Assembly (NCBI GenBank): GCA_004123355.1
Contig: SCHM01000001.1
Location: 7,822,193-7,886,192 of the forward strand
Length of the DNA: 64,000 nt
Direction: 5' to 3'
Origin: Amphirosellinia nigrospora
Lineage: Eukaryota; Ascomycota; Sordariomycetes; Xylariales; Xylariaceae
The translations under genes were made by a program, and so were the position numbers. Below the pieces are notes generated by a model. The model ran no database searches and was not told where the DNA came from. It worked only from the letters and a program-made list of their open reading frames with translations. Each line of letters begins with the position of its first letter. Position 1 is the first letter of the stretch. Shown here piece after piece: positions 18,018 to 63,851 of this stretch.

Positions 18018-19328
18018 TCAAGCATTGCTCGTGTCTTGTGAGGCTTGAGCGTCGTAAACATCATTCGTCACCGATGCTGGGTAGTGCACATCCCCAGCAC
18101 GCAAACCGATTCCACCACTGAATGCTCAGCAGAGTCTCATCCAAGGTAGCATCGAACTCTCCAACTTCTTATCTCTCAAGCACCTTGCACACTCGTCCGC
18201 TTCCAGAACAACCGTGACCCCAGCCATCCGGTTCTCGTCCTGGGGGATCGGGCAGTCTACTACCTCGACATGACCCCACTGTCTTTCTTGATGATGCGAT
18301 ACTGCTTGGGCGGAAGCTGGGCCCAGCACCTGTATCTCGCCTTCCGATCCTTGTATCCTGATTGGTGGGCCGGCTGTAAAGTCGTAGTCCACGCCAGAAT
18401 GGATACGGAAAGCAGTCATGCCAATGCCCATACTCTTGTGCTTAGGAAACTGCAGCACGAAACTCGCCATCTCATCCACACCAGTATCGTATTTATTCAC
18501 CGCGGCTGTGATAGTCGGTGGTTCTTTCGGAGTCTCAGGCTGCAAGTGATAGAGGATTTGCATAATCCATGCAAGAGCGTAGACACCAAGATCTAGCATC
18601 GCACCACCAGCCAGGTCGGGGTTAGCAATCGGTGTGTGTCATCCCTATCAGTTTGCCATGGTGCATCTCCCCGAGAGAGTTATCGGCTATCAGTTGATCA
18701 GTCAAGCCAAGAGATAGGAGCCGAGCAGTATGGGGCGCTTGGAGGGGGACTAGACGCGAAGCTTGTCGGCTGGTAGGCACTCACCGGTTACACGATATAT
18801 CTCCAATAGCACCGACGAGACTAATCTTTGCACTTTTGCACTGAGTGGAAAGAAGCGGTCCATACAGCCTCCATGAGGAATAACTTCTTGTCTCGTGCTT
18901 TGCTAATAAGCTGCTTTGCTTGCGAGGACGTGACGGTGAGCGATTTCTCGCACAGCACGGCTTTCCCGGCACCCGTGCCATCATAACGTTACTAAAGTGG
19001 TACTTTGAGGCGTAGCCAATAGACGATATCGACGGCCGGTCAAGGGCTAGCTCTGCGTACGTGCCGTAGGCTCGCACACCGGGTGGTGCTTTCACTTATC
19101 ACAAAGTCTCGGGTTTGCGTATGCCCGAGGACGAGGCCACAGCACAGAGCTGGTGTCTTACATCGTGGACGTCGCGTATTGCGGGATCGGTGAGGAGATC
19201 CTTGACGAACCCTGGGCCTTTTGTTAGTTTCGCTATAATGTAGATCTACACGTTCGGGGAGACATACTTTCTGCCACGTGGCCGGTGGCGATGATACCCA
19301 TTTTTACGATGTAGGTGTTTCGAATCAT
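18018..19328 (-). CDS. Gfo/Idh/MocA-family NAD(P)-dependent dehydrogenase (dihydrodiol/D-xylose dehydrogenase type), frame disrupted
   Basis: A cytosolic sugar- or diol-type oxidoreductase with an N-terminal Rossmann fold. Reading from 19,328, the start region gives an MIRNTYIVK leader followed by the nucleotide-binding GIIATG motif. An intron with a GTATGT donor and ACTAAC branch point follows, then KDLLTDPA and RAYGTYAELAL. The family signatures YHFSNVMMA and LMEAVWT come next, then a second intron (GTGAGT donor near 18,783), and finally NPDLAGGAMLDLGVYAL and KYDTGVDEM near 18,500-18,630. The pieces lie in different frames. Several breaks look like one base missing from a homopolymer, for example GGGG to GGG at the first motif and three such losses before the RAYGTY segment. 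It lies at the repeat edge of the cluster and is codirectional with the glycosyltransferase. A sugar-nucleotide or polyol role beside a UGT is plausible but inferred. It could also be a true pseudogene. Confidence 0.8.
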
Positions 19329-19966
19329 GGCAGTGTCTTGAACAGGAGAATGAGAGTTGGACGAGCTGACATTGCAAAGAGTGACATAGAGGCCGATTTA
19401 AAGGGCGACTGCGCTCTGCCTAGCTGGGCGTCATGGCATATGTGGCACCCCCACAGGACGATATACCCTAGGGAATCGAGATGGTTGCTCCGATAGGTAC
19501 ATTGCCTAAAGCAGGGTTAATACTAATCTGTATCTATTTTTCAAAATAGGCCTGAAAGGAGCCAGCATACTCGTCCTAGACATTTCATGTTCTCGCTTTA
19601 CTTACATATCCTATTTCCGTACCTAGTCAATATACTGTCGACCTATCAAGCGCTGGGGCTCTAGAGCTTGTACAAGATTTCCCCTTCGCCGGTTGAGATT
19701 TGATATCCGACATTTACTGCCACGGGTTTAATTGGGTTTTAAGAGAGAATCGGAGTTCCTTGTGTATTCTAGGTATGTATAAGTGAGATAAGCGAAAGTT
19801 GAATCTATGAGGATTGTGGTGATTTGTGACGTTTCACCGTTTGGGTAATATGAAGTCTGCTCAAATTTCATTAGGGGTCCAGGGCAACATCATTTGGAAA
19901 CATCGTTTGGAAACTTCAATTCTACTCCCAGATACGGAACAAGGAAACCTGATCAAACCCGCCGTG
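19329..19966. other. Intergenic, dehydrogenase upstream / UGT 3' side
   Basis: About 640 bp of ordinary composition. It should hold the promoter of the minus-strand dehydrogenase and the terminator of the UGT. No motif or further gene stands out. Confidence 0.5.
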
Positions 19967-21620: not shown

Positions 21621-22668
21621 TGTCACGGTGCCGTAGGAATTATACTGCTACTTGCAGCGCTGGATTCTCGATCAAATAAAATTGGGGTGGAAAGCCTGGT
21701 ATGATGTGAGCCTTGTGGTCAAGACAAAGAATAAGAGCATGAGAAAAGCACGCAAAGGCGGGCACTTACAAGCTGTGCACATGCCTACAGGAGTGGGAAG
21801 AGCGGGGAGTTGAAGTTCTCTGCAAAGAAAAGTATAGTATACCCATGAAATACTATAAGCATTCATGTTACTATTCGAGCAAAGATATCTCTTACTTAGC
21901 TAAGCAACAGTCCCCGATGTTCTTTTGTCTTGAGCTTTCGCCGGGTAAGCATATGCCACTTTCTCCCATGGATGAGAGGGTGTGCTAATGCAACATAATT
22001 GCCCAGCCTCAGAAGCCGGCAATAGACCGGCTGAAAGAAATAAGACGTGTTGGGTGTGGGTAGACTAAAGCGCGTGCTATGTCATGAAGCCAACCTCGAA
22101 CAAGTTACATCTAACAAGACCAACCTCCTGCCGAGTTCACCGCGCAAACTATCACCTTGGACGAGAGGCAAACCTAGTGCATGCCGCGCTATGCGGATTC
22201 TATACAAACATAGCACTTGAAAAGGCGGGGGCCTTTTGTTGGCAGCATGGCTAGATATCACACCTTGCGGCAATAGTGCCATTAACAATTAAAATACCCG
22301 GTGGTGGCGAGCACGTTTTTATGAAAATGGAAACCTTTGCCGGCGAAGCTCGATTTTGAATACGTTGTAAATTAAATTGCAGTACCTAGAATTAAATTGG
22401 CGTGGTGTACCTAACCCCCCTCGCCCCTTTTGCCTGCTAGATCCTACCCCAGTAGTGATTATTAAGCATAAAAGTTAAAAGTCTCAATTAAACTGACCTA
22501 TAATGAGGTAAACTTGCGCTAAAAATACGGTTACTTAGTTACAAAGTTTAGACAAGATTTTCTGTTCGCCTTATCAGAGCAGTAATATTTATTGAAAAAG
22601 GTATTCATAGTAATGAGCCGTTGCTGGATAGCCACCCCTAGATCGCAACCATCTTGTTTATACAACGC
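21621..22668. other. Intergenic between UGT start and P450 3' end
   Basis: About 1 kb. Short open frames here (for example 21,672-21,866 and 22,082-22,288, minus) show no recognisable motif. It presumably contains the UGT promoter. No repeat or RNA gene is seen. Confidence 0.5.
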
Positions 22669-24505
22669 TCAATCGTACGTAACACTGCTCGGTACCCTGA
22701 TAGCCCGTTCGCGCCCTAGAGGACTGTTCAATGCGTTCGGAATAAGCTCGAACTTGAAATTGAAAATAACCAATGTCAAGATCAATCGTAGCTCCTGTAC
22801 AGCAAGAAGCTTCCCTAAATTCGGAATTTCGTCATCAGATCATTGATTTTTGATAAATCGTAAACGTAGGACTAATCACTGATGAAGGGAGAAATACACA
22901 CCAAAGCATGCTCGAGGTCCACTGCTGAAGGCCAGCTTCGGCAATGCATTCGAGACAAAATTGCCCTTCTCATCAAGCCACCTCTCGGGCGAGAACTCAT
23001 CTAAATTCTCATGCCAGACCGAGCGAGTGGCTGATTTAGTCTCTTGGGACTTGGCGCTGCGAATTGTCTCGTCAATCTCAAACGGCGGCTCGGCGACATA
23101 TATACACATTATGTGAGCGCCCTTGGGAATTTTGTAGCCTAGCACATGAGTGTCAACTGTGGCAACTCGTACTAGCCGCGGCACAATATGCCCAACGCGC
23201 CTGATTTCTTCCAGACACCCTTCCAGATATATGGGTCGTCAGTATTTGCTCAGCAGAGGGCGGATTTGATGGTGAACAGTGAGGAAACGCCTCATATAGG
23301 GCTGCACGAAGCTTTTCCTGGGCGAGCTGGTTGTTTGTAAGCAGCTTTGCAGCCCAGGAGAGAGTTGTTGCCGTAGTGTCGTGCCCTAACAGGTAAGAGA
23401 GATGGAGTGTCAGACCGTACTTAGTTCAAGAAGCTTGTGTCGTCTTGCTTACCACTATCAAGAACATAAAAAGCTCATCGTGAATCTCCTGTATCGTGGG
23501 TTGCTTGTTGTCCATGATGGCTTTCTTATTAATGATGGCTTTCTTATTAATGATGGACTTTCTCTCCTTAGAACATAATCCATTGCGCATGTGTCGGCGC
23601 TCTTGGATATGGCTTCCTCGTCGAGGCCTGCAAAGCGTGATCGAGCCGAGGTGATGAGATCGTCCACAATGCGGCACTTCACGGCCCAGTGCTTTCTGAA
23701 CTCTGGCATATTACGGAGAAGCCAATGATGAAGTCTCGGCATTGGGAGGTTAGAGTCTTCCCAATGCTGTCATTAAAATGTTTCATCGCACGGTATAGCT
23801 CTCCGCGCGGCACAACAGGAATATAGGCAACATCATCTTGAGACTCTGGCTGGTGAGCGAACTCCGCACCGTTCTTTATGCCGGTCGTCTCGTTCGTAAC
23901 ACCGTTTAACCTCGATCCTAGTAGTGATGCCCATATAGCGTCCAAGGTGACTAGCTCGAAGTCTTCCGCGATGGGAAACGGGCGGCCACCTGCAATGGCG
24001 CTCTTCGTCTTGAGAAGTTCGACGAGGGATAAAGTAGCTTCATATACTCGTGGCGCAGCGACACGTCGAAGAAAGTCAGGCTTCATGACATCCATCCAGA
24101 GCCGTCTCTGGGCTCTGTATTCAGGTGTCGTGAACTTGATGATACTTGAGCTCGGCACGAAAGGCTCCAAGAAACCGATCGTGACGGAGCGCGATCAAAC
24201 TCCTTGGTGCGATTGGACATGATATCCTCAACTTCGCGAACATCATCTATGATAATGAACGGTCTAGTGAAGGCCGGAGAAAAACCTGAACCACAGGGGA
24301 ACCAAGCTTGTGACATTGTGCGAAGACGAACTTGGCCGGCGCCTTTGTTTTCTTTGAGGCTTTGGCCAGATCTGGAAGATCTCCCATTAGACGCCTCGCA
24401 GAGTGTTTGTTGTAGGGAATACCCGGATAGGGACGAGGTAGGCATATTGGCAAACCCAGAGACAGAGTATAATGAACCAACGAGTGCAAGATAGAATGTT
24501 GCCAT
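22669..24505 (-). CDS. Cytochrome P450 monooxygenase, frame disrupted
   Basis: A heme-thiolate monooxygenase, probably anchored in the ER by its N terminus (MATFYLALVGSLY then a PRPYPGIPYN proline hinge). Motifs in order are: PFVPSSSIIKFTTPEYRAQR (helix C region); GHDTTATTLSW of helix I near 23,380, carrying the conserved acid-Thr pair; LEEIRRVG with the K-helix ExxR near 23,190; FSPERW; and the heme loop FSSGPRACFG with its Cys codon at 22,916-22,918. An intron follows the heme loop, and a last exon reads LAVQELRLILTL to a stop at 22,669-22,671. Family length of about 500 residues fits. The frame changes several times, and an 18-bp in-frame tandem duplication lies at 23,516-23,551. It is divergent from the PKS and shares its 1.8 kb promoter, so a tailoring oxidation of the polyketide is likely. 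Confidence 0.9.
23516..23551. repeat. 18-bp tandem duplication inside the P450
   Basis: Two perfect copies of GATGGCTTTCTTATTAAT followed by a partial third. The length keeps the reading frame and doubles the hexapeptide SLIRKP on the minus strand. It lies between the helix C and helix I segments of the P450, probably in a surface loop. Confidence 0.85.
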
Positions 24506-26302: not shown

Positions 26303-29300
26303 ATGGAGAGCTCCTATTCCGAGGACATTGCTGTCGTTGGCCTCGGTCTCCGCTTCCCGGGAGACGCCACCGACCCGGAGTCCTTCTATAACCTGCTTCG
26401 TCAGGGCAAATCTGCGCTGGTGAGACGCCAGCTGACAGATATAACCTCGATTCTTTTTACCATCCTGATCAAGAACGTCTTGGCGCCGTAAGTAACAGAT
26501 ATTGCTAGCTACAAGTGATCTATCTAGGTTATGAGAGGCGGATACTGATTTTGGAGAGGGTGGCACTCTACCCTTTTATTGTACTATCTTCTATAGCACA
26601 AGGCTGTTCTTCAGCACTACTCGCTACAAATATCACATTGCTTCTATATTCAACCAATTCCACAGATAAGTGCTGACTGAAACCAGGTGAACGTACGACA
26701 TGCACACTATCTGAAAGATGATATATCAGCTTTCGATGCCGCATTCTTCTCCATCACACCAAATGAGGCCGTATACATGGATCCTCAACAGCGAGGGCTT
26801 CTGGAGACTGTCTATCATGCTCTGGAAAATGGTAAGTCTCTAGGCCCTTTAAATTGCCCCTATAATATGATTAGTCAGTTATTGTTGATATATCTCATAA
26901 GCTGGCATACCCTCGACAAGGCGATGGGTCTCGGACTTCGGTACACATTGGTTGCTTCACTCGCGAATACGACAGTATCTTGTGCCGTGACCCAGAAATC
27001 GACCTGAAATACATCGCTACCGGAACTGGCACGCGCTGCTGTCCAACAGGCTGAGTTGGTTCTATGATTTTCGCGCCCTAGCTTGACGTTAGACTCGGCT
27101 TGTTCCAGTAGTCTCAATGCCGTTCATCTTGGTTGCCAAGTCTCAAGTCCGGCGAGTCAATATGGTGAGTTAAAGGATCTCACATTACATGCAAATTTGG
27201 GTCGACGTGCTGACTGAGATGATTGGGCCGTTGTTGGTGGCTGCAATCTCTTTTATAACCCGGACACCATGATTCCACTGACGAGTCTTGGGTTCCTTTC
27301 ACCAGATGGAAAGTGTCACACCTTTGACAGCAGCGCCAACGGCTACTCGAGAGTGAAGGCTTCGCATAGTTATTTTGAAGCGAGTATCAGATGCTGTCCG
27401 TGACGGCGACGTGATTAGAGCTGTCGTCCGCGCTACATCGTCCAATCAAACGGAAAGTCGCCCGGAATCACGCAACCTACCCGCCGGGGCCAGGTTGCTC
27501 TGATCCGTGAGGCATACGAGAAATCGGGTCTGGATCCTGGGGTGACACGATACTTTGAGGCGCATGGGACTGCACCGCCATGGGTGACCCAATTGAAGCC
27601 AGCGCCATAAGCGATGTCTTCACACCCTTCAGGACATCAGACGAGCCCATGTATGTAGGCGCGCTGAAGAGCAACATCGACACCTCGAAGTGCGGCTGGT
27701 ATCGCCGGCTTCATTAAGGCTATATTCGTGCTCGAAGGTGGCATTATTCCTAAGAACCTGTGGTTCAAGGAGGTGAATCCTAAGATCCCGGCCGACAAGT
27801 GGCACATCAAATTCCCAGTAATGGCGACAGCGTGGCCGCAGGAGGGGCTACGAAGAGCGTCGATCAACTCCTTCGGCTACGGTGGTAGTAACGCCCACGT
27901 CATCCTCGACGATGCCTATTTTTACTTACGTGGCCGCAAGCTGAATGGACACCATAAAACCGAGCTGAAGCCGAAGGTGGCTTTGGCCATATCGGAGGCC
28001 CCAGGCAGAACGGCATCGATTGTCATGAAGCAAATGGTATAAGTGGCCACATGGCCAACGGAGTAAATGGCCATATCGACAAACAAGAAATGAACAGGGT
28101 CTTCGTCTTCTCGTCAAAAGACGAAGAAGGTATTAAGCGCATCACCGAGTCGTATTATGGGTTCATCGAGAGACAAGCACTTATCATCAAAAGCCAGGGC
28201 GAGGATCCTTACCTCGGCGATTTGAGCTACACTCTTCATTATAACCGGAGCCACTTCCAATGGCGATACAGCGTTTGGCGAAGGACGTAAACACCCTCAA
28301 AACTGCACTGACTGCTTCTCCAGTCGCGGTGCGCTCTGGGTCTACCGGCAGACTCGCACTTGTCTTCACTGGCCAAGGAGCTCAATGGCCGGCCATGGGT
28401 CGCGACCTCATCCGATTCCCTGTGTTCATGGGTAGCGTACGCCATGCTGATCAGTATTTGGAAAAGCTTGGTTCCCCCTTTTCGTTTCTGGGGGAATTAG
28501 CCCCGAGCCAAAAATCTGTGGTTAATGAAGCCGCATACAGCCAGCCGATGTGCACTGTTCTACAAGTCGCCTTGGTCGAGTTACTGCAGAGTTGGGGTAT
28601 AGAAGTTGGAGCCGTAGTTGGTCATTCTTCCGGAGAGATCGTTGCTGCGTTCGCTGCCGGGCCATCTCGCGCCAGAGCGCCTGGAGAATTGCCTACTACC
28701 GCGGTAAGCTTTCTTCAGAGCTGAAGTGTGACGGCGCTATGTTGGCGGCTGCCTTGTCTTCACAGGCTGCTAGGGACTACATTGAAAAGGTTGACTTAAG
28801 CGACGGAGAACTCTTGACTATTGCTTGTCACAACAGTCCCAAGAGCGTAACGATTAGCGGAACTACAGACAGTGTCGAAATACTTCAAGCCCTCCTAGAC
28901 AAAGATTCCATCTTTAATCGGAGACTCAAGGTCACAATCCCATATCATTCCACTTATATGAACAAAATAGCGGATTCGTATCGGCGGCTAGTTGGCGATG
29001 TGGAAGCTCGAGACGGCGGCCAAGATTTTCCTGTTGCGCCTGTCTATTACTCGTCTCTGACAGGTGACGTCGTACCGCTGCAGGCGCTCCAGTCGCAGAA
29101 TACTGGTCAATAACTTGGTCTCGACGGTAAAATTCTCGGAAGCAGTATCGAAGATGCTTAGCAGCCATTCAAAGAGAGGCAAGGGTTGAAAGCTACGCAC
29201 CCGATAACTCCCGTGTCAGAGCTATTAGAGATCGGTCCTCATTCTGCGCTACAGGGACCTCTTCGAGAAATTATGGAGAAGATTCCAGGCGTCAAAGATG

Positions 29301-32300
29301 TCTCCTATAAGGCTATCATCAAGAGGAAGTTCAACGGAGTAGAAACCGCCTTGGAAGCTGCTGGGTGGCTCTGGAGTCGTGGACAAGCCATCGACATACA
29401 TACTGTTAACACTGCCAAGGGCACCCCTGCTCCCAGCATGCTGACAGACCTCCCGCCCTATCCATTCAACCATTCAAAGACGTTCTGGAAAGAGAGTCGT
29501 CTGAGCAAGGGATATCGATTCCGCCAAAGCCCCAGACTTGAGCTGCTTGGTGCCCCAGTGCCAGACTGGAAAAGTCCAACGCCATCTGGCGAAACTGGAT
29601 TCGTCTCAGTGAGAACCCCTGGATTAGAGACCATAGAATTACCGGCAGTCTTCTCTATCCAGGTGCTGTATTAGTCATGGCGATTGAAGCGAGCAAGCAG
29701 TTGCTCAAGCCGAAGAAAGTCCTCAGGGCTTTCGAATGAAGAGTCGTATTCCAGGTCGCACTGCGCATCCCGACGAGCACGGACGGCATCGAAACAAGCT
29801 TCCAGATCCGGCCGTACTTGGATGTTGGCAAGCACCTCATCGTCATGGAACGAGTTCTTACTCTCTAGCCACGATGGTGAAGATGGAACCACTGCCGTGT
29901 TGATTCAGCCAGAATATCAAACTCCATAATCCTATCGACGACGGAAATGAAGAGCGCCTAACCTCGCAACAGTACATAAAAGCGTTTAAAGAGGCAGAAG
30001 CCTCCTGTAAAGAAACTGTCTCTTCAAAGCAACTATATGAGCTTCTTCGTACCACTGGCTTTGACTTTGGAGAACTTTCCAACCCTTTCAAGGTCTCCAT
30101 TGACGACCATCAAGGGGCAGTCGCCACGATCAAGGCCCCGAACATTGCGGACAAGATGCCACACGGCTATGTCCAACCCCACTTGATCCATCCCACGACT
30201 CTGGATGGTGTTATACAATCGGTCATCGTTGCTTTGACCCGTGGTGGGCGCAAGGCTCGCGACGCCATGGTGCCGACTGGCATCCAAAGCCTCTGGATCT
30301 CTGCGACTCGAGACGACAGCTTTGGCGAACTCCGTGTATCCGCCAAGGCAGAAAGACTAGGTCTCCGCCAATCGACCGCTTCCGTCGCAGCAAGACACTC
30401 GGGCTTGGACAAGCCAGCGCTCATTATCGAAGGCCTGGTATCGACGGCCATCTCGGGCCGCCAGGAAGACCAATCAAATACTCGTGGCGCACATCACCAT
30501 CTGAGCTTCAACATAGACTGGAAACCAGACGTGACCTTCTTCAGCCAGGAATCCCTCGGGAAAGTCTTCCCTTCGTTGGAAGAACGCGCCGATGAAGACC
30601 CGACCGAGCTGATCGCAGACGTCGAGGCCATTTGCTACATATATCTACGCCGCTACTTCAAGCTCGGCGCCAAAGGCAAAGTGACGGCGACAAGACCTTG
30701 GTATAAGCAATATATTGCGTGGGCAGAACATCAGCTTGCCCGGCACAACCGCGGAGAACTTTTTCACGATGCCAATAACAACTGGGATAGGATATCCGAG
30801 GACGAAGAAGCCTTCCGCAAGCTTGAGGCCAAGCTGGAAAACAGTAGCCCAGAAGCCAAGATGAGCGTGATCGTCGGACGGGCTCTCCCTCAGATCTTGG
30901 CAGGCGAGGCCGACCCTCTCGAGATCTTCTTCCGAGATTCCGTGATGGAGAACGTGTACCGACACGGCACCGGTGCCGAGATCTGCTACTCTTATCTCTC
31001 CAGTTACATCGACTCGCTCGCCCACAAGCACAGCGATCTCGTCATTCTCGAAGTAGGCGCTGGTACGGGTGGTGCTACAAAGCCTATCCTCGAGACACTG
31101 ACTCGCCACGGTGACGAAGAGGTCGGGGCTGGTCGTTTTGAGAGATACGACTTCACCGATATCTCGCCCTCTTTCTTCGAGACAGCCAAGGAGACATTCA
31201 AGACGACGGCCGGCCGGATGCGGTTCAAGACCCTCAACATCGAGAATGACCCGCAAGAGCAAGACTTCGAGCCTGACCAGTACGATATCATTATCGCTGG
31301 GAATGTCGTCCACGCGACGAAGAATATTGATCACACCCTAAAGAACCTACGGAACCTACTAAAGCCCGGCGGCAAGCTAATCCTCCATGAGCTTACAAAT
31401 CCGGCGATGGTCCGAACTGGTTTCGGCTTTGGCCTACTCCCGGTTGGTGGTTATCTGAGGAATCACATCGTGCATGGGGGCCGTTGCTATCGTCGACTGG
31501 TTGGGAAACTCATCTAAAGCGTAGCGGTTACACTGGTGTGGATCTCTGCTTCGAAGACTACCCTGATGAGCCCAATAAGTTGAACAGCATCATCGTTTCA
31601 ACTCGCGAAGCGCCCGTTCCGCAACCCGCCCGCTGTCATCGGTCATCATGGTCATTGATGGAGAGTCAGACTTCCAGCGTTCTGTGGCTGCAGACATTCG
31701 TAGTGGTGTCCTTGCATTGGGTCACAACAGTGTGATGTCGTCGAGATACACCAGATAAGCGACGTCGACCTGGCTCAGAAGATATGCATTATTCTCGTCG
31801 AAGTCGAAGGCGCGAGTCTTTTATTAGATATCGACGAAGCTAAACTTAAGGCTCTGAAGAAGATGACTTCCGCCCCAGAATCTCTTGTATGGCTAACCCT
31901 TGGAGGCGGTCCGGCATCGCAGTATCCCAACAGCGAGGTGGTGACTGGCCTCGCCAGAGTTATCAGGCAGGAGAATCCAACGATCAATATTCTGACCATT
32001 GCCATCGAAAAGATCCGTAGTGCAGCTGCAGTCGCGGAGCCACCATCCGCGTCATTAATTCAGCTTGGACAAAGGGCAGAGACGTGAGCGATAACGCTTT
32101 CTGGGAGTCTGATGGTGTCATTCACGTTAGTCGTCTAGTAGAAGCGAGCTACATGAACGATGCCATCGCACGCAAGACCACGCCACCTATCGCACAACCT
32201 CAAGCATTCGGTAGTGATCCCGACCGTGCTTTGAAGCTGGTTATCGCGTCTCCGGGTCTCCTCGACAGCCTTCAGTTTGTCAGTGACCCTGTATACGATC

Positions 32301-34461
32301 AGCCACTCCCCGAAGGCTACGTCGAGTGGAAAGTTGAGGCTGCTGGCCTTAACTTCCTCGACATAATGATTGCTCTCGGCCAGGTCATCGGTAACGATCT
32401 AGGGGTCGAGGGTGCGGGCGTTGTCACTCGCACCGGTCCGAACTCGAAATTCAAAAGGGGCGACCGTGTCTGTGGCATCTCTGCCGGTACTTTCAGCACA
32501 TACGCCAGGGTTGCCGAGACGAATCTCGCTAAAATCCCAGACAGTCTATCGTTCAGGGTTGCAGCAGGACTGACTGTTGTGTTCGTAACAGCATACTGCG
32601 CCCTCTACAACATTGCAGACATTCAAGAAGGCGAGTCTGTCTTGATTCATGCTGCTGCTGGAGGTGTGGGCCAAGCATGCATCCAACTTGCCAAACATCG
32701 AGGGGCAGAGATCTATGCCACAATCGGGTCTCTTGAAAAGCGTGACTTGCTCATCAACAACTACAATATTCCCTGACCATATTTTCTCGAGCAGAGATCT
32801 TGTGTTCGCCCAGAGCATCAAGCGGATGACAGGAGGTCGTGGCGTCGATGTTGCCGTCAACTCGCTCTCTGGCGATGCCCTGAGGGCTACTTGGGACTGC
32901 ATCGCGCCGTTTGGACGTTTCGTAGAAGTAGGCAAGGTGGACATCTACTCGTCAGCCCGGCTTAACATGGAGAAATTTAAGAATAATGTCAGCTTCGAGT
33001 TCGTAGATATCAGCTACCTCGCCAAGAACAAGGGCAAGAAGTTCGCAGCAATAATGGACGATTTGATGAGCTTGGTGAACGGCGGCCACATCGGAGAACT
33101 CCACCCTACCCAGGCATTTACTTTCGGAGACATACACGAGGCATTCCGCTATATGCAGAGTGGCGCGCACTCAGGCAAGATCATCATGGAGCCGCATATC
33201 GATGACATTGTCCCCGTGGTTCCGAAAGCGGATAATACCTACGTATTCGACGAAAATGCATCATCGTAATATCCGGTGGTCTTGGCGGCCTGGGCCGATC
33301 TATTGCAAGATGGATGGCGAGGAGAGGCGCTAAGAATTTAATTCTGTTGTCGCGATCTGGCAATACGAAGTCGTCGTCGAGAGTACTCGTTAGAGAGCTA
33401 GAGGCAAAGGGGTGATTGTGGCCACGCCTCAGTGCGACGTATCTGACGTCGAGTCGTTAAAATCTGCTCTCGAAGATTGCTCGAAGAAGGGAATGCCCCT
33501 GTCAGAGGCTGTATCCAAGGATCCATGGTCTTGAAGGTCTGTCACCATGAACACACCCTCTCCAACTTGGACATTATGTATGACCAAAGAACTAACTCTA
33601 CTCATAGGATGGACTTTTCGAAAACATGTCACTAGAAAGCTATTACGCCGCCATCAAACCTAAGGTGCAAGGCTCCTGGAATCTGCACAATACCTGCCAC
33701 ACGACATGGACTTCTTCATTCTCCTGTCCTCTATCGCGACGATTCTCGGCAACCGTGGTCAGTCAAACTACAATATTGGCAATTCGTTCCAGGACGCGCT
33801 GGCAAGGTACCGGGTTCTTAACGGCCAGAAGGGAACGGCGCTAGACCTGGGCATGATTCTGTCGGTCGGGTACGTTGCCGAGACGGACTCTGACCTAGTC
33901 AACCACCTGCGCGACGTCGGCGTCGAGCCCATCCGCGAAGAGGAGTTCCACGCCGTGCTGGACGAACTATGCAACCCATCGCTCGGGCCGCAGTCGTTCG
34001 CGAAGGCGCAGATCACGCTAGGACTGCAGATGCCGGAGACGCGCATGGCAACCGGCGCCGAGGAGCCCGGGTGGATGCGTGACCCTCTCTTTCAGCACCT
34101 TCACCGCATCCGGACACTCGAGGGCACGGCTGACTCAGACGGCAAGAATATCAACTATGGCCTTCTCCTGGCCGGCTCGGACGGCTTCGACACGGCCGTC
34201 GAAATCGTCTACGGCGCGCTGGTCGAGAAGCTCGTCAAAGCCTTGAACATTTCGCCGTCCGACGTTGATCCCTCGAAGCCGCTGCACGCGCTCGGCGTGG
34301 ATTCCCTCGTGGCTGTCGAATTGCGAACTTGGATGCTTAAGCACTTCGACGCCGACGTCGCAGTGTTTGATTTAATGGAAGTGCCTTCCATTCAGGCTCT
34401 TGCTGCGTTGATTGCTTCAAGGAGCAGCTTCGTCGCTCAGGAGAGGACGAAAAGTGAGTAA
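26303..34461 (+). CDS. Highly reducing type I polyketide synthase (KS-AT-DH-MT-ER-KR-ACP), frame disrupted
   Basis: An iterative multidomain synthase of about 8.2 kb, the normal size for the family. KS starts at [13 protein letters not shown]; its Cys codon is 27,101-27,103 (DSACSSSL) and the EAHGT His codon is 27,563-27,565, with introns at about 26,490-26,686 and 26,832-26,900. AT has [12 protein letters not shown] and GHSSGE (Ser codon 28,626-28,628). DH has HxxxGxxxxP with its His codon at 29,632-29,634 and the LDGVIQ Asp codon at 30,204-30,206. C-MeT shows LEVGAGTGG at about 31,050. ER has [10 protein letters not shown] near 32,650. KR has [14 protein letters not shown] near 33,275 and a Ser/Tyr/Asn catalytic set near 33,720-33,790. 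ACP has GVDSL with the carrier Ser codon at 34,303-34,305. All signature residues are present, but frames change many times, most densely in KS and AT; the DH-MT stretch 30,156-31,517 is open throughout. There is no thioesterase, reductase or transferase release domain, as usual for this class. Confidence 0.95.
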
Positions 34462-43734: not shown

Positions 43735-46599
43735 TCATCGTAGCTCACCAGGTCCCTTTTCCACAACAAATGCAACCGGACGCCTCGCGCGCCGATTACG
43801 CGCGCCGCTCGGGGGTAGAATGCTCATGTTTTTCATATCCAAGCCTGCTACGCGGGGACTCCTTTCATCGTATCCCCATCGTGTGACCCCGCCGCCGTTA
43901 ACCCAGCTCTCAAGATTGCGGCACTGGCTAATATCGGTCCAGGCCAATTGACCACAGCCCTCAAGAACACTTTCAACTCCAGAGGCAGTTACTCGTACAC
44001 ATCCCCTCACACTCAGCCGCTCAAGGTCGTTTAAATGAAGAGCAATACAAGCGAGACTATTGTCGCTTACTGCGCTACCACAGAAAGCCATCTTGAGTTC
44101 CCGCAGGTGCGGTAGCCCAAGGGCGACCACTTCCGTAGCGGTATCTGACAATGCGCAACAAAAAGACAGGTCAAGATGAGTGAGTGCTTTAGCGGCATTA
44201 ACGAGAGCCACAATAGCGTTGTCGGAAAGATAGGTGCAATCGGCAAGGCACAAGTGAGATAAGTTTACAAAGCGGAAAGGCGCCCATGATTGAAATCCAG
44301 CGTCTGTGATTGATGTACAGCGCGTAGGGAAAGTGATTGGAGACGGTGTGATGCATGAGCGGCCATGTGAGCCATAGAACGATCCGTGATATGCTTGCAG
44401 TACGAGAGATTTTCTTAAGCTTGGGGCAGCCGATAACGGTTCCTGGAGGCGGTAATGTTACTGTTTGCGTCTGCTGCCGTTGACCTCTGACACCCTTAGC
44501 TGAGCTTGCGATGACAACTTGCTTTTGCGGAGGATGGTCGGAACAACCCATCCCACCACACGAGCCAGTAGATTATCGCCCACCTTGCGACAGTTGCTCC
44601 AGTCGACCTCCTCCAAACTCTTAGCATGGTCACTCATTTCAAGAATCTGATTTGCCGAAACCTCCCAAACGGATTTCATCCTCCATATCTTGACGTTTTT
44701 ACCACAGAGCTTCCAAAATGACGAAAACCCCTCATCCGTTATATGAAAGCAGTTGCTCACGTCAACTGAGATCGGCCTATGGCCAAGGAAAGGTGCTAGC
44801 CGATTAACTAAGATATCATCAGTGACCCAACGATTGTAAGGGGATAAGTCCACGTGATGGCCCAATTCAGGCGAATTCGACAGCACTTTAAGCCAATAGG
44901 TAGATAGTCGTCTGAAGCGAAATAAGTCGACGGCATTTAGATATTGAAATATAGTTGTCAGCATGTCGTCGGGAAGCGGCGTTTTTTGTTTTCCTGGGCC
45001 GTCAAAATCCGATGGTCTATCCAATAGCCGTGCCCTCTTCGTAGGCCCTTCAAAGTCGGGGGACGACATAGCCGGCATAGTGAGCTTTATCGACGTGGCC
45101 GTATCGATCATGCGCGGGCGCGCACCATTCACAGTCGGGGTACTGGGCGAATCATTTGGCGGCGTTGGTGGAGCTAGAGATGCTCGCCGTCGATTTCTCA
45201 TATTCTCCATATCGACGCTGAGATAAGGGTCAGGGTCTTTCGGTATCAGCTGTTCCGACTCGCCTTTGATAGGGGAGGCAGGTTTCGAGGGCGTTGTGAA
45301 GATAACCTGAGGAGCCACCCGCATTGAAGTTGCTGGGATGCTGTCTCCTGTTGCGTTCTCGGCGTCGGCCATCTCAACATCTTCGGTATCATCTTTTCTA
45401 ATTCGGTTCCTGGCCGTCTCTTCGACTTGCTCCCTGAGACTACTAGGACACCGTTTCCATAGCTCATCAAGAGCTTCACCAGTAATCATCAAGCACTCGA
45501 CGACAGTAATAGACCTAACCGTTGCGGTTCGTTTTTGAGAAAGACCAAGGCTAGCGACCTCGCCAAAATATTGACCCTGTCTCAGCCGTGGTCTAATTAG
45601 AGATGATCTTTTTGCTCTTTTTTGTGTCTGACCTTCTGGTGCTTCATGTATCACCTCTGCTTCGCCACGCACTATAAAGTAGATCTCGTTTCCTAACGTC
45701 CCCTGATGGATTATGTCTGTAAATGGGAATATGTCTTCGGTTGGCACTCATCCCAGAAAATGAAGGATATCAGGCGGTAGTGTGGAAAAAAGAGGAAGCT
45801 CCTTGAGGGTCTGTCTTACACTCACTAGACCACTACCAAGAGCGCTCCCCGCAGTTAGATCTTCGAGGGCGCCTGGGCTAGGAGACTTTCTCTTCTTAGT
45901 ATTTATCACGCCCCCATCCCTAAAAACACCTTCATCGCCAGTCGCGACTTCGCCGGGTGCAGCTTCTCGCGCGTGATTTTGGCGATGCTCAGGTTTAAGT
46001 ACACGACCGCTTTCCTGGCGCTTCTTAACGGTGACCGCCAATCGTTCGTGGGCCTCGTGACGAATAGCTTTGTCCATATCGGGAAATTTAGGAAGCTCAA
46101 TCTGAAGGTCTTCTTTCTTCAAGACAAGCAAAAGACATTTTGAACGGGCGATAATTGTAGCCGTTCGAGGCATATTCATAAGAACGCCGATTTCGCCGAA
46201 AAAGGACCCAGGTTTGAGCTCGGCATATATAGCTTCCCCGTCTCGAGAAGTCACAGCGACCACGCCACGGACAAGCCAGTACATAGCTTTCGCCTCGTCT
46301 CCCTCTGTCAGAATAAGGTCGTGGGCCGAGTGAACTTGCGGTCTTAAATACTTTCCAATCGCTATTAAGAAATCGTCGGAAGCGGACATAAAGAGCGGGA
46401 ACGATCTCATGCGATCAACTAAATCCAGCGGCATATCTGGGAAAGTCGATGCTGTGAGAGGGGAGGGGCGTACCGGCCGTGCCGGGTTTGTCTCAACATT
46501 AAAAGACCTAATCAAGGATGCTGAGTCTGGTAGCTGGCCATTCGCTGGATGGTGTGCCAGGGCCCTATAGGGCGATGGGGGAGTTCTTGCGCGCCTCAT
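43735..46599 (-). CDS. Cyclic-nucleotide-binding / F-box / LRR protein, frame disrupted
   Basis: A long soluble protein (about 950 residues) conserved in filamentous fungi. It begins MRRARTPPSPYR; an in-frame ATG at 46,659 is an alternative. The first cNMP-binding fold has LTEGDEAKAMYWLV and the phosphate-binding cassette FFGEIGVLMNMPRTATI. A charged linker (NTKKRKSPSP) follows, then a second cNMP fold (GNEIYFIVRGEAEV, YFGEVASLGLSQKRTATV). After a Ser/Pro-rich linker comes an F-box (LPDDMLTTIFQYLNAVDLFRFRRLS without its last residue) and then repeated cysteine-type LRRs (CFHITDEGF, CTYLSDNAIVALV, CCALSDTATEVVALGL, GCVRVTASGVESVLEGC). The F-box/LRR part suggests an SCF ubiquitin-ligase substrate adaptor, perhaps gated by cyclic nucleotides; the gating is inferred. 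An apparent TGA at 45,748-45,750 and three shifts at 44,250-44,560 coincide with shortened homopolymers or dinucleotide runs. It is ordinary core-genome content beyond the cluster. Confidence 0.88.
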
Positions 46600-48035
46600 G
46601 TTGCTTACGAGCCCCCGACAGGCGACCGACCAACCTCCGGGAATATCCAAAAAATACAACGTTTTACGATTCGATACCGATTACTCCACTAACCCGACCA
46701 GAAACGATCGACTTTTTTAATTGTTAGAGTAATAGGGCCAACGGGTACACCTCAGGCAAGCAATAGAACATGCTATACCTTAGAGTGATTTTGACGTCCC
46801 CCACAATGAATACTGGCACGCGATACGACGTTCGAGGGTTTGTCTAGTTCTAGGAGTTCATTTGGGAAGTGATAGGCTAGCAATCTGTTCGAAACAGGAC
46901 AAGAAGCTGAAGCGCTTTGGCTGACGCAGAGGATCGTCGTGAATTAATTGTGCTTTGAACTTAGAGGGATTCTCGTAGGCGAGCCGGAAACCGTTAAGGG
47001 GCAAAGAAGGACGGCACGGCGCAGAAATACGATCGCAGGAGTGGAAGGAGATGCTCATGGGCTAGATTCCAGACGGTACTCGTTCGAAAAGTAAGACTAG
47101 AAACCGACAAGCCTTGGTCAGCCATCATGCGACTATAAGTGCGGCGGCCGCGACGGCCCAAATGACTATAAATTGTGGGATAAGAGACTTACAATAACAC
47201 GACAAGTAAGAAAGCCCGGCCAGTTTTCCTCATTCGCCCCGAAACCGACAGCCCAAAGCAGAGCAAGTTGGAGTTTGTTGGTCGTAAAAGTGCCAGTCTG
47301 ATACAACCGTCGATCGCAGAGAATTGCAAACACACGACACGACACGACAGCATTCGTTTCAGAGATTTGAATTGGTGCCTTTAGGTCATAGCTTATTGGA
47401 ACGGAATTCGAAGTTCATTTAGACTGCGCCAGACCAGCCTTGAGTTCAATCGGGAACAAAGGAAGTGGCTCTGCAAATGGCAATACTATGTGGCAGGATG
47501 GTTGGAGGGAAACGATCTGATTCTATGGGGGGGTGATAATTGAGCTGTGCCCCCTCCGGGACGAAGTTGTGTTTTAAAGTATAACTAGTAAGATTTTGTG
47601 TGTTTTTTCTTTCTTTCTTTGGAGTTTATGCAGCTTGTCGCATGCACATCAGCGGTGCGGGAGGAAGGGAGCGCAAGCAGGGGGTTTGATTGAGCGGGTG
47701 CGGCGGATCTGTGCGACAACGCAGCCCAGGAAACGTATAGGTAAGGTATGATATATAGCGAACAAGGGATATGTGACGGTCAGCTGGCGATGCTAGGTGA
47801 GTTAAAAGGCCTGAGGGGAACAAGAGAATGCGAAAATGGCCATGATAATGACACAGGCGAAGCTCCCTCCCACCTCTTGTTCTGACTTTCGAAGATTAGT
47901 ATGCTGTAGGACTAAACTTTCCGTAATCAAGACCCCTAGCAGCTTGACTTGGTTGGTCAGAATTGGCGGACTGGACCTGCTGCTGTGAGCTAAAACCGTC
48001 TGAGACACGCTGGGCTGATGTAGATCATGGGTACC

Positions 48036-51402: not shown

Positions 51403-51437
51403 TAAACATACACCAAACATACACCAAACATACACCA
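51403..51437. repeat. 11-bp tandem repeat, three units
   Basis: AAACATACACC occurs three times in direct tandem, the last copy running into AGACG. It is a simple minisatellite with no visible role. Confidence 0.8.
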
Positions 51438-52276
51438 GACGAAGCGGACAACCCAAAGATTTCAGGTCAAAAGGACTCGAGCCTAACGTCCATTGCTGAT
51501 CTACTTGATGGCGCACACACTTACACTGACCGTCCGAAATATATACATATAGCATCCATGTGATTGGCGTCTAATAAACAGCATAAGTGGTCAACACATG
51601 CTAAGGAAGAGACCTAATCCGCGACTTCAAATGCCCAAGGAGGTACAAAAAATAACAACTGGTCAAATCGGCATTTAAGCACAGAGCAACTTTGTAATAG
51701 CGAGTTATGGAACAAGTAGACCATCTACTAGATGCCTATATAAACGTGACAAATCTTCAAGGGCCGTTCTTGCATCTGCTGTATATTTAGACCTAATAGT
51801 CACATCCATACACTACAGAGTAGCTACTGGATCACACAACAACCAGACGATATCTCATAGCAATCTTCGTCAAGAATTGGGCAAAATAAGGAAACGGTAG
51901 ACTTTGAAGTCCAGTTATTACTCAAGCCAAGTTATAAACCATGCACTTGAGACGAACTCCTGCACGACAGGCCTTGGCAACTAAACAGAAGGAAGAGTCT
52001 CTTCCTAGTTGTTTCTTTAAGTGTTTTAAAACTGTTGAATTTTTTCTTCCTTTTTTTATATTTAGTTACATACTAGTACAAAGGACCGAACTAACTCATT
52101 TTCGGTGGGTATGATATTCGCGGTCTCTTCAACTAAGAGAGGAGTTTATTGGTGACCGTACCAACGGTTTCCTACTCTATCAACCAGGCCCGATTTCCTT
52201 TCCATGGCGCGGTGTGCATAATGATTTGATTGATTCAGACAAAGCCTCCCCTATTCTTTCCAACGTTGCTGCTCGC

Positions 52277-53373
52277 TTACTTGCGGCGGTTTTGTTGCAG
52301 CATCAAGATCTGGACCATCCGGATGAAGATGTTGAGGAAGTCGAGTTCGAGAGAAATGCTCTCGTTGATTGGGTCCTTCTTGATGATACCCGCTCGGCCA
52401 TGCGAGCATGGTGCAGAATCTTCTGAACGTCGTAGAGAGTGAAGCGCCGAAAACGGCGAGACCACCGTACAGCCAGATGTTCTCAGTCAAAGCGAGGGTT
52501 CGGGCGGCGGTTGCGGGGATAATCAGAGGAGCAAATCCGGAAACAGCAACCAGGGCAGCACCAGCCAACAGAGGACCTCCGATATACAAGTACTTCTCTT
52601 GCTTAGCAGTGGCACCGATGAAAGATATGGAACCCATCATAGCGACGGTGTAAAGACCGGCGCGCGCAATGAGGGCACCAGGCGCGAATGCAAGCAAGGG
52701 CGCAACGAAGGCGGCTTGGGTGGCGTTGAAAGCGGTCCAGAGGGCATATTTAGGGATGTAGCTGAGATGGATAAAATTAGCACGTCGTATGAAAAGGCAC
52801 CAAGATGGAGATAGATAATCTTACTTGTCTGGATCAATGGATCGTGTTCCAATCATAGTACCGAAGCTCAGAGCTATGCCACCGATGGCAACAGCCCAAG
52901 GGTTAGTCACCATCAACCGGTAAACAAAACCACTCTGGATCATTTGTCGCGCCGTCAGGCCGATGATGCCAATACCCAAGCCGGTGTGCAGGAAGGTCGA
53001 GTTGAGATAAGATCGCTCGAAGGCAGGCATGCCGCCATCCTCGCGGGTTTCACGGTTAAAGACGACATTAAGGGCGATGACGGTACCGCCAAAGATGGCG
53101 CCACCCGTTAATAATCTCCGAACGAGTGAGCCCTGGTCTACAGCCTGCGAGGACTGCTGGTTGTACGCTCTCGACTGTGCAAATGGATTCTTGGGCGTGG
53201 CTCGCAGGGTCGAGGAAGCGATCGTGGCTCTCGATGTGAAGAAGGTGGAGGGCTTGGTGGCGGTTGGTGGAATGCTCGGATGGGAGCGGAGGCGCGAAAT
53301 GACGACTTGGCGACTGGGGCAGTCTCGCTGCAAGGCGCGCAGGTCCTTGACGAACCGTTATGGTGAATGACAT
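52277..53373 (-). CDS. Mitochondrial Bax-inhibitor-1 family protein (GHITM/TMBIM5-like), frame disrupted
   Basis: A multi-pass inner-membrane protein; relatives support cristae structure and ion exchange. Exons are 52,825-53,373 and 52,277-52,761, with a 63-bp intron (GTAAGA donor, CAG acceptor) between GTRSIDPD and YIPKYALW. The N terminus is Arg/Ser/Ala-rich, like a mitochondrial targeting sequence (MSFTITVRQG, FRASAPIRAF). The membrane part includes LLTGGAIFGGTVIALNVVF, NPWAVAIGGIALSFGTMIG, MGSISFIGATAKQEKYLYIG and ENIWLYGGLAVFG. The end reads INESISLELDFLNIF and QILMLQQNRRK. The frame changes twice near 52,400-52,450, at TTT to TT and GGGG to GGG, and again in the targeting region near 53,260-53,340. 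Without those losses the protein would match family length (about 340 residues). Confidence 0.9.
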
Positions 53374-54033: not shown

Positions 54034-54736
54034 TTACTTCTGCTCCAGTGGCTCGAACGGCCGCAGGAAATGGCTGGGGCATTCATAGCCCCAGGGATTC
54101 TTGTTCAGATACAGTTGGTGATAATCCTCAGCGTCCCACCAGGGGCCTGCAGGGACGACCTCTGTCACAATACGGCCTTTGTACCACTGGTCGTTGGCCT
54201 GCTTTGTGACCTCTTTGGCAATCTTTTCTTGCTCCTCGTTGTGAAAGTAGATCCCACTGCGGTAGTTGGTTCCAGCATCTGGGCCTTGTCTGTTCAAGGT
54301 TGTCGGGTCGTGCATCTTGTAGAAGAACTCGAGGAGTTGACGGTACGTAATTCGTGCCGGGTCGTAGTAGATCAGCAAAGCCTCATTGTCTATCGCCGTT
54401 TTTTAGTTCCGATACTTTCGCTACAATAGCTAGACTACGGCACACATGAATAACAAGAAAAAAAAGCGCTTTACTCACGTCCTGTCTTCCCTGAGCACAC
54501 CTGCTTGTAACCCGGGTTCGTGGAATCGCCACCGGTGTATCCTACACGAGTGTCATAAATACCCTTGTCGCCAAAATGCTTGCGGTACAAGTGCTCGACG
54601 CCCCAGAAGCAGCCAGCACCCACGGTGGCTTTCTCGGCGCCTCGGGAATGGCGGGGCGTGGCGAACCGCCGCCACTGCCAGTAATGCCCATAGCGGTCGA
54701 CATGGGACGGAAGAGGCGCTGAACGAACGAGGGCAT
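54034..54736 (-). CDS. msrA: Peptide methionine-S-sulfoxide reductase, one frame break
   Basis: It reduces methionine-(S)-sulfoxide in oxidised proteins, using thioredoxin. Exons are 54,479-54,736 and 54,034-54,389, with an 89-bp intron (GTGAGT donor, TAG acceptor) splitting the codon in SGKTGHNEALL. The catalytic signature GCFWG follows the conserved PEGAEKATV-type entry. Other family landmarks are [45 protein letters not shown] and EDYHQLYL. Coding length is 614 nt, one short of 204 codons plus stop, because the Gly-Ala stretch before the active site reads GAGGCGCC where GAGGGCGCC is expected. The active-site Cys therefore sits in a shifted frame. [14 protein letters not shown] could be a weak mitochondrial leader. 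A hydrophobic frame upstream (to 54,879) might extend the N terminus if another base is missing. The gene is divergent from the eL33 gene. Confidence 0.95.
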
Positions 54737-55388
54737 AGTAAATGCATCAGGAGAAATGCAAAGGCGAGGGCGAGTAGCGCCGTGCGTAAGGAAACACTAT
54801 TCTCAGTGTTGCTTGTAGAGCCAGGGGCGTATTTCTTATTCGACACCGGGACGTCGACGTTGACATGCGATATATTCAATTCGAAAGCTTATTTGATGCT
54901 AGAGAGATGCGCTACGCACGAATTTCTCAAGAAGGAATGGATGGAAAGGAGAAGGTAGGAAAGAGAAATAGAGGGATTAAGATATGTCGTTGACGTTGCG
55001 CCGCCACCACTCGGGATGAGATGGATGACAATTTCAATGGTTCATGACAAATCGTAGAATACTCAATTCGGACGCAGCTTTTGAGCCCCCGCGAAAGCTA
55101 TTCCTAGCTATTGGGCCCCACCAAAGCTCAATCACGTCAGTGTGAAACAAAGGTGCTTCTCTGCCGATTCCAAATCGCTCGGCGCTCAGGTGGAGATCTG
55201 GATACCTGCCTTTTTGGGTGTCGCATCTGCGATAATAGCATTAACGGTCTATCTTATCTTATCTTATCTTATCGTGCGCGACCCTACGCACATCCCACTT
55301 TGGCTCTTCGCGAACATGAAGCTGAGCTACGACATCGGCCTTATTGAGTATCCGAGCTGAAGCATTCCATTTACCTACAATTGACAAG
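54737..55388. promoter_or_regulatory. Bidirectional msrA / eL33 promoter
   Basis: A 650-bp spacer between divergent genes. It contains a five-fold TTATC/GATAA run (55,250-55,274) close to the eL33 start. No classical TATA box stands out. Confidence 0.55.
55250..55274. promoter_or_regulatory. Tandem GATA motifs (TATCT pentamer run)
   Basis: The plus strand reads four TATCT-type pentamers and a final TATC. On the minus strand this is five GATA cores, four of them GATAAG. Fungal GATA factors bind such sites, but a pentamer microsatellite is equally possible. It ends 115 bp before the eL33 ATG. Confidence 0.5.
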
Positions 55389-56122
55389 ATGCCTACAGAA
55401 GCTGGCCACCGACGTAAGTATATCTCTTCCAAGCTGAAATGAATAACGCCTACTAACATACTTTAAAGTTTACGTCAAGTTAGTACCCCCACGTCAATCA
55501 GTCTCTCAGCACAACCAGTGCTAGGTTGGAGTCAGTGCCGTAGGATGTGACTGATAAAATCATAATTAGAGCCCGACATCTCGGGTACAAGCAGAACAAG
55601 CATACCCAGCACCCCAACCGAAGTCTTGTAAAGATTGAGGGCGTTGATACCACCGAGGCTGCCACGTATGTGCATGTTTATATCCATCAGCTCAGGGTCC
55701 AGCTTGTTGACATTCATAGCTTCTATCTGGCAAGAAAATCGCTTTCATCCACAAGGCGCCAAGGAGACCAGTAAGTTGAATTATCACATCGCTCCAAATC
55801 CCACCATATTCGTACATGGGTAGGTTTGAGTTGATACTAACTGCTTGTCTGATAGGAGGCACTCACACGCGTGTGTAGGCTATTTGAAAATTCAATTCGC
55901 GGCATATCAAGTCAAGTCACTAACCACAGTTTTAACAGATCTGGGGCAAGGTCGTCCGGCCCCACGGTATGACCCTGACAACTTCAAGTCCAAATATCCA
56001 ATATCGCTGATCATTCGGTTTTAGGCAACTCAGGCGCTGTGCAGGCTCGCTTCTCTGTTCCTCTTCCAACCAAGTCGTTTGGTGCTAGCCTCAGGGTCTT
56101 ACTATATCCATCGTCGATTTAA
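55389..56122 (+). CDS. rpl33: 60S ribosomal protein eL33 (L33/L35Ae), 7 exons, frame disrupted
   Basis: A small basic protein of the large ribosomal subunit. Exons are 55,389-55,413, 55,469-55,478, 55,570-55,665, 55,720-55,770, 55,856 to about 55,874, 55,939-55,966 and 56,025-56,122. They encode in order [23 protein letters not shown]...[21 protein letters not shown]-like and HK...[20 protein letters not shown] and [14 protein letters not shown]...[12 protein letters not shown]. Introns 1 and 5 show ACTAAC-type branch points and AG acceptors. Total coding length is 327 nt; three more bases are needed for the expected 109 residues. Each missing base falls in a G run: CTGGGC read as CTGGC, GCGGCC as GCGCC, and one at the exon 5 donor. 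Exon 2 is only 10 nt. As an essential, usually single-copy gene it is the best internal control for sequence accuracy here. Confidence 0.95.
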
Positions 56123-62100: not shown

Positions 62101-62790
62101 AGCTGAAGATCATGCCTTTTGAACGGTGAACGACTACGATTAATCATACTATAGAGCGAGAACTGCGTCGTCGATCTTCTTGTTCTGTACACATAATCCA
62201 TACCGGGAATATCACACTCCGTGCGTGGGTTTCATTTATATCTAAAATGACAGTTCTAATCGCCTACCTCTGGTAGGTCCGAATATTTTTGGTCTTTCAG
62301 GTTCAGCCGGCTTGGCACGGTCCAACTAGTTCGATCATCTGTGTGGGGATCTGGGGAGATACTGGGCAAGACACAAGGAGTTCGTCGCAAGGAACCGAAT
62401 GTAGTCTCTTGCCGAATATCCGATAGTGACTACTAATGGTGTATGCCGTAGCGTAGGCGCCACGGAACGCATAAAGGGTCCTGTCGACCCATCTGTGAAA
62501 GAGCCTCGCGATGGAATAAGTGCCAAGACATTTATATTCAATTCTCTTTAGGCTCAAGAGCGCATCATTATTGTTGATGCAAAAGATACCAGTCCCATGG
62601 TATTTTGACGAAGATGACGTACTTTTGAAGATAGCGATCACGACAACTATAAAGGGCCATGTTGCCATGCCTCTATCGTTGACGCCACGGCTCGCTGCCA
62701 TCAAGCGATTGAGGAACACACGAAGGGAGGCCGCAAGCGCCCGCCAAGACCAGTCACGACATCTGGCCAGGTACATTAAGCATTTGGACC
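56123..62790. other. 6.7 kb without a recognisable gene
   Basis: Ordinary, GC-balanced DNA with many short open frames (for example 59,664-60,128, 60,287-60,853, 60,751-61,212 on plus; 62,303-62,776 on minus; 62,520-62,864 on plus). None shows a motif I can place. A T15 run lies near 59,709-59,723. Poorly conserved, intron-rich or RNA genes cannot be excluded, especially if bases are missing. No tRNA or rRNA gene was recognised. Confidence 0.45.
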
Positions 62791-63851
62791 ATGGGGCAGC
62801 AACCCTCGCTTCCAGGGCCGCCTGGTACCAAATTTCGCGTTATTGGTGCTGGAATGTAAGTTAAATTTGCTGGATATCATATGTTAACTTGGCCAGGGAA
62901 AGACGCGTACATCCATCATGATATAGAACGCGCCCGATACGACCTTCTGGCGATATGAACGTAAGCTGACGTGGAATAGGTCGCGCACTGGTACCAAGAC
63001 ACTTAACGAGGCCTTAACGATACTTTTACAAGGGCCAGTCCATGACTCTGGCATTCAATCGCTGGTGGGCCCATGGAGCAGATCGGCGCTTGGTTCAGAT
63101 TATGACCCTTGCCCAAAAGCGCAATCTTTCTCAGACCAGAAAAAACTCGACTGGCTGCTTTCCTCCGTGCTCGACGGCTACGTCGCTACTATGGATGTGT
63201 CCGGCTGCTACGCTCACCCCGGAGATAATGCGCGTCTACCCCGACGCCATCGTTATTGCGACAACTCGAGACGAGGAGTCGTGGTGGAAGAGTATGAGCT
63301 AGTGCGTAATTCCCGGACTTATGTTCTTCCTGATTTGGTCCCTTTTGGAGCACGACGTTTCCTTTTCGGACGTGGTGATGTTTCGAAGTTTTTGATATCC
63401 TCACAATTCACGCTATAATAGCAATTGACTCCGAGTGTTGTAGTCTGAATAGCATGATGTCGACGTGGTATCTACCGCTCGCAGTGCTCTTTCTACGCAA
63501 GAGCCAGGTATACGGGCTCTGGATGTTTAGGTTTAGGGGATTATGCAAGGCGGTACCAATCGGAAAAGATCCAAGAGGATACGCTACGGAAACACGAGAG
63601 CACTTGCGTGAGACTGTGCCCCCGAAAAGCTGTTCTGGTACAATGTCAGCGAAGGGTGGGAACCGCTCTGCCGTATCCTCAATGTGCCCGTGCCAGACAT
63701 CCCGTTTCCCCATAACAACAACAAGATGGATGCGTCGAAAGTAGTCCGGGAACATGTCGTGGCGGGCGTCATGTCATGGATATTCGTGCTGTCGACGTTC
63801 GCTGTCACGGTTTGGTTCCTGAGTAGTTGGTACCAGAGGCATTTCTCTTGA
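62791..63851 (+). CDS. Sulfotransferase-like P-loop protein (Sulfotransfer_4 type) with C-terminal membrane helix, frame disrupted
   Basis: The start context is GACCATGG. Exon 1 (62,791-62,855) reads MGQQPSLPGPPGTKFRVIGAG. The codon then splits across an intron (62,856-62,979, GTAAGT donor) into MSRTGTKTLNEALT; this forms the 5'-phosphosulfate-binding loop typical of the family. Downstream are LDWLLSSVLDGYVATMDVSG, TPEIMRVYPDAIVIATTRDE and ESWWKSM near 63,215-63,300. A further exon or intron boundary follows. Then come GYATETREHLRETVPP, LFWYNVSEGWEPLCRI and VPDIPFPHNNNK near 63,575-63,725. The end, WIFVLSTFAVTVWFL then SSWYQRHFS, is a single membrane helix. Frames change at least three times; one is CCGGAA read as CCGAA near 63,625. 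Substrate is unknown. Many fungal members are uncharacterised and not all are proven sulfotransferases. Confidence 0.82.

Follow-up and report, generated by a model that had tools for sequence, protein, structure and literature searches.

Frame-breaking errors of the kind described here are already known. In long-read-only assemblies of Drechmeria coniospora, conserved genes are reported to be frame-broken and to be repaired by short reads, and BUSCO is reported to miss indels of this sort (PMC7500977). Most of the gene-fragmenting errors addressed by Kastor are described as false deletions that go with runs of two to eight bases, a small fraction lying elsewhere (PMC12007338), and the systematic nanopore homopolymer indels addressed by Homopolish are described as shifting frames and outlasting polishing (PMC8011154).

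The window analysed here, a stretch of 64,000 nucleotides, resembles the D. coniospora case in that conserved genes of a fungal genome are broken by small indels; there, as reported, the indels lie mostly in homopolymers and come from long reads only. The platform used for that organism is nanopore, and polishing is reported to have added more insertions than deletions, whereas deletions prevail in the present assembly (PMC7500977). The Kastor cases are likewise indels that mimic pseudogenes, with deletions in the majority and some events outside runs, but as described they concern bacterial genomes with references and reads, whereas the present genome is that of a eukaryote with neither (PMC12007338). 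Frame-shifting indel errors are shared with the Homopolish cases, for which the platform is given (PMC8011154); the long runs of the present assembly are without visible truncation.

The frame breaks of the window are interpreted as small indel errors of the consensus that extend across the whole assembly, mostly have the phase of a single lost base, and appear enriched in short homopolymers without being confined to them (probability about 0.96). In the organism itself, the sequence at almost every break site is most likely undamaged. As the cause we infer an insufficiently corrected long-read consensus: if error-prone long reads are assembled with too little short-read polishing, the consensus would drop bases, and every base dropped inside a gene would shift the frame and produce a lookalike of a pseudogene. 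Very probably there is no biological feature in the breaks, and the finding is an ordinary one that is useful as a warning.

Gene content and frame breaks of the window

The window occupies positions 7,822,193-7,886,192 of contig C1 (13.8 Mb) in an assembly of 11 contigs totalling 48.1 Mb. Its GC content is 6-9% over positions 1-16,000 and 47-52% from 20,000 onward. Blocks of ~6-15% GC, found at 1-16,000 and likewise on contig C5, are extreme for a fungus and by look may be called RIP-like.

For the Pfam search, 70 pieces were picked out of the 291 stop-free frames of at least 60 aa and searched singly, ten of them again with a looser cut-off. Eleven gene regions were recognised: a Gfo/Idh oxidoreductase, a UDP-glycosyltransferase, a cytochrome P450, a polyketide synthase, an MFS transporter, an FAD monooxygenase, a zinc dehydrogenase, a cyclic-nucleotide-binding/F-box gene, GHITM (Bax1-I), MsrA and the ribosomal protein eL33. 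A secondary-metabolite cluster spans 18126-43200 around the highly reducing polyketide synthase (domains KS, AT, DH, methyltransferase, ER, KR and ACP) and also carries the P450, FAD monooxygenase, glycosyltransferase, MFS, zinc dehydrogenase and Gfo/Idh genes. ARAGORN found no tRNA genes in the window, and its open-frame lengths were not clearly distinct from those of euchromatic stretches taken from the same assembly as controls. In the polyketide synthase and the FAD monooxygenase, a break was recorded where two pieces continuing one Pfam profile overlapped or nearly abutted with differing frames. The frame changes located were as follows.

22879..23425, minus strand: cytochrome P450, frame change (two PF00067 stretches separated by 262 nt and by 67 profile positions)
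28245..29110, plus strand: polyketide synthase acyltransferase domain, frame break (PF00698 positions 3-102 in one frame and 97-209 in another, 19 nt overlap)
32021..33266, plus strand: polyketide synthase enoylreductase domain, frame break (PF00107 positions 1-30 in one frame and 36-101 in another, 22 nt gap)
33608..34458, plus strand: polyketide synthase ketoreductase domain, frame break (PF08659 positions 94-126 in one frame and 125-178 in another, 10 nt overlap)
40511..41079, minus strand: FAD monooxygenase, frame break (PF01494 positions 4-126 in one frame and 122-174 in another, 22 nt overlap)
44461..46680, minus strand: cyclic-nucleotide-binding/F-box gene, in-frame stop and three compensating shifts (PF00027 on either side; three-frame translation)
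52251..53357, minus strand: GHITM-like (Bax1-I) gene, frame changed twice within the C-terminal third (PF01027 and three-frame translation)
54037..54746, minus strand: MsrA, upstream reading and catalytic domain in different frames (PF01625, three-frame translation)
55389..56122, plus strand: eL33 ribosomal protein gene, two frame changes in exon 55720-55770 (PF01247, exon translations)

Six of the 11 regions were shown to be broken, namely the polyketide synthase, the FAD monooxygenase, the cyclic-nucleotide-binding/F-box gene, GHITM, MsrA and eL33. The first-pass annotation had placed breaks in almost every gene; this holds for these six and was not confirmed for the other five, among them the P450 with its apparent two-base insertion near 23,230 and the dehydrogenase with its three losses in a row. 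In the looser search of ten pieces, the glycosyltransferase, mid-dehydrogenase and N-terminal P450 pieces stayed unmatched to a clear reading.

That GHITM, MsrA and eL33 are frame-broken, as the first-pass annotation had stated, was confirmed. Both GHITM changes fall in 52251-52500 on the minus strand, where raw three-frame translation uses three frames in turn, and conservation persists beyond the breaks to the conserved end and stop. The GHITM piece gave no match in a PDB search. In MsrA the upstream reading does not share the frame of the catalytic domain, and no Met precedes the GCFWG motif in the open frame of that domain. The window copy of eL33 was read as six exons, and two frame changes lie within the exon at 55720-55770, which is only 51 bases long. 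Its best matches were 7r81_h1 and 7olc_Lf, the Neurospora and Chaetomium chains; together with the short GT-AG introns and the highly reducing polyketide synthase, they point to a filamentous ascomycete as the likely source. In the cyclic-nucleotide-binding gene, three shifts within ~45 nt near 45,750 bring the reading back into frame, with a stop codon gained on the way, as judged by eye.

Decay of the cluster and its neighbours into real pseudogenes in this lineage, perhaps beside the AT-rich RIP-like block, is the foremost alternative and is very unlikely. The cluster does adjoin the 6-9% GC block, a second eL33 copy exists elsewhere in the genome, and where cluster genes are dispensable a minority of their breaks may be genuine. 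Decay would however be expected to strike a dispensable gene or one with an intact copy elsewhere, and no intact copy was found for eL33 or MsrA: the second eL33 copy, on contig C6 (1788-2634 of its extracted stretch), is likewise broken, and profile search of the assembly located MsrA once only, in its broken form. Read exon by exon, the C6 copy has three exons out of phase, one by two lost bases or one extra base, one by a lost base and one by an extra base, so that neither of the two eL33 copies reads through. The possibility raised earlier that these genes are duplicated decayed copies was thereby checked, and the artefact reading stands. Moreover, both flanks of the breaks are still conserved. 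Where both eL33 copies can be read (49 codons), differences at codon positions 1/2/3 number 13/7/30, a pattern that would be expected of copies under long constraint and with which recent decay would still be compatible.

By eye, the window eL33 diverges more than the C6 copy from an N. crassa-like sequence. It lies ~12 kb from the polyketide cluster, and it is speculation that a second eL33 might be a duplicated target conferring self-resistance.

A misreading of ordinary short introns as frame changes is highly improbable. Short GT-AG introns do occur in window genes according to the exon reading, and two of the window changes are or may be introns: the GHITM step from 52842 to 52766, near 52,800, is consistent with one, and in the P450 an intron of ~60 nt could suffice as the cause. 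In GHITM, eL33 and the cyclic-nucleotide-binding gene, however, the shifts fall within continuous conserved peptide, and base losses in tRNA and 5S genes would be left unexplained.

Conserved protein families across the assembly

Protein families were searched over the 48.1 Mb, CCT/Hsp60 and HSP70 first, with actin and class-I tRNA synthetase added after the first results. A break was counted where adjacent pieces of one locus changed frame and overlapped or lay less than 38 nt apart, which leaves no room for an intron. One of the 30 actin rows (C7:825180-825320) was nested in another match and was excluded from the adjacency count.

PF00118 (CCT/Hsp60): 10 breaks; 10 loci, 6 broken; 4,680 matched residues
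PF00012 (HSP70): 9 breaks; 11 loci, 6 broken; 4,164 matched residues
PF00022 (actin): 8 breaks; 10 loci, 5 broken; 2,924 matched residues
PF00133 (class-I tRNA synthetase): 1 break; 6 loci, 1 broken; 1,855 matched residues

In total, 28 breaks were found in 13,623 residues (40.9 kb of matched coding sequence), or 0.69 per kb. The true figure is probably higher, since short pieces fail to score and compensating shifts are invisible. Break density was uneven and notably low in the tRNA synthetase family, with one break in 1,855 residues. As consensus error would predict, the breaks were genome-wide, affecting 18 of 37 loci in all four families and on six contigs (C1, C4, C5, C6, C7 and C8). Conserved genes on other contigs thus break equally often, which argues against decay of one cluster, and all 28 changes, being overlaps or gaps below 38 nt, argue against introns.

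Indispensable genes were affected as well. CCT subunits are essential in yeast, and the CCT/Hsp60-family and eL33 genes are essential; six of the 10 CCT/Hsp60 loci and both eL33 copies were broken, which is as expected of errors in the consensus. Since CCT subunits are essential, real loss at such a scale is not credible. Both phases of frame change were seen among the 28 coding breaks, and the phase of one lost base predominated (21 of 28, p 0.013 against one half), in keeping with the excess of deletions expected of consensus error.

An ab initio model of three-base periodicity that allows for frameshift states called four deletions and no insertions in 15.5 kb of predicted coding sequence in the window, and 17 deletions and four insertions in 55.8 kb at 12 control loci. 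The deletion rates agree (0.26 per kb in the window, 0.30 per kb in the controls), in a model that discriminates poorly between coding sequence and background (0.09 nats per codon) and was run without an error-free control; these modelled rates would lend slight support to consensus error.

At ~0.69 breaks per kb, many genes would be split, truncated or labelled pseudogenes. By extrapolation over 48.1 Mb, the rate, if constant, would put the errors in the tens of thousands. Before this assembly is used to claim that genes were lost, that a cluster decayed or that a family has a certain size, its sequence needs polishing.

Base losses in tRNA and 5S rRNA genes

Untranslated genes served as a non-coding control. 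The tRNA set comprised 58 listed matches, with 63 of 1,644 candidates scored, and is biased to well-formed copies; 47 of the 58 fell into 13 clusters, and the 11 singletons were left out. Among the matches listed, the Val, Ala, Met, Thr, Lys and Glu families (26 copies) showed six deletions, no substitutions and no insertions. In the Glu family there is one full-length copy only, and the polarity of the change rests on length. Two more deletions were found in the Ile and Asn families, which vary more; an Asn pair whose two members have G runs of unequal length was excluded as ambiguous in polarity. The tRNA count among the matches listed was therefore eight deletions and no insertions. Five of the eight lie in runs of at least two bases, and three of these five in runs three or four bases long. 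Of the rest, two removed a single base that is not part of a run and one removed two bases from a CG repeat. A few of the tRNA copies could be true pseudogenes.

For 5S rRNA, all 33 listed matches were compared (47 of 2,127 candidates scored). Events were counted in 17 main-type copies, picked by eye at five or fewer substitutions from the consensus, with the 16 divergent copies set aside. These 17 copies carried 10 deletion events and no insertions: six at a C5 run, two in a G4 run, one in a C3 run and one a two-base loss in a CG repeat. Some of the 5S differences may reflect true variation, chiefly those in the run of five C. The 5S genes are dispersed over contigs C1, C4, C5, C6, C7, C9 and C10 and are of several sequence types, some strongly divergent.

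Consensus error was expected to reach non-coding sequence, and to do so mainly by deletion; indeed, losses without gains were found in both gene classes (8 vs 0 in tRNA, 10 vs 0 in main-type 5S). Base losses in tRNA and 5S genes argue against translational recoding and against ordinary pseudogene decay. Decay, and RIP most of all, should add substitutions alongside indels, whereas the 26 tRNA copies of six families have six deletions and no substitution.

Real frame changes that the cell corrects, by genome-wide ribosomal frameshifting or by insertional RNA editing, have a smaller chance still of explaining the breaks. Such correction would square broken essential genes with a living organism, and the breaks are indeed flanked by conserved sequence. 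Recoding would however be confined to translated sequence and run in a single direction. Because tRNA and 5S rRNA are untranslated, ribosomal frameshifting cannot account for their losses; both phases occur among the coding breaks, and no common site was noticed at them by eye. One tRNA has copies both with and without the base, which speaks against obligatory editing. The narrowest version, in which the bases are truly missing from nuclear DNA and are restored by insertional editing of mRNA, tRNA and 5S rRNA, is the least probable of all, and we know of no precedent for it in the fungal nucleus.

Taken with the breaks in conserved single-copy genes on six contigs, the tRNA and 5S losses uphold the choice of consensus error over gene decay made in the first-pass annotation. 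To regard the breaks as a feature of this window was too narrow, given 18 broken loci of 37 on six contigs. Its statement that nearly all changes are deletions fits the 21 of 28 coding breaks with the phase of one lost base and the RNA copies counted, where insertions are lacking, and must allow for a coding site with the phase of an extra base. Its description of one-base homopolymer losses agrees with the excess seen in runs of at least three among the RNA events, and goes too far in that only six of 12 RNA events lie there and two-base losses exist.

Those six of 12 tRNA and 5S events compare with 14-18% of bases in runs of at least three (p 0.003-0.013), in a test that took in all tRNA events and the 5S events other than the six in the run of five C. 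For tRNA only and runs of at least two, the excess was not significant (5 of 8 vs 45% of bases, p 0.48). Across the assembly, neither truncation of long runs nor gross compression was seen in the run lengths, whose distribution declines smoothly, with A and T runs of up to 26 in AT-rich DNA. The assembly holds 860 overlapping matches to 14 G (both strands); among the first of them, which were those listed, consecutive matches make up an apparent G run of 37 bases at C1:2729791-2729827.
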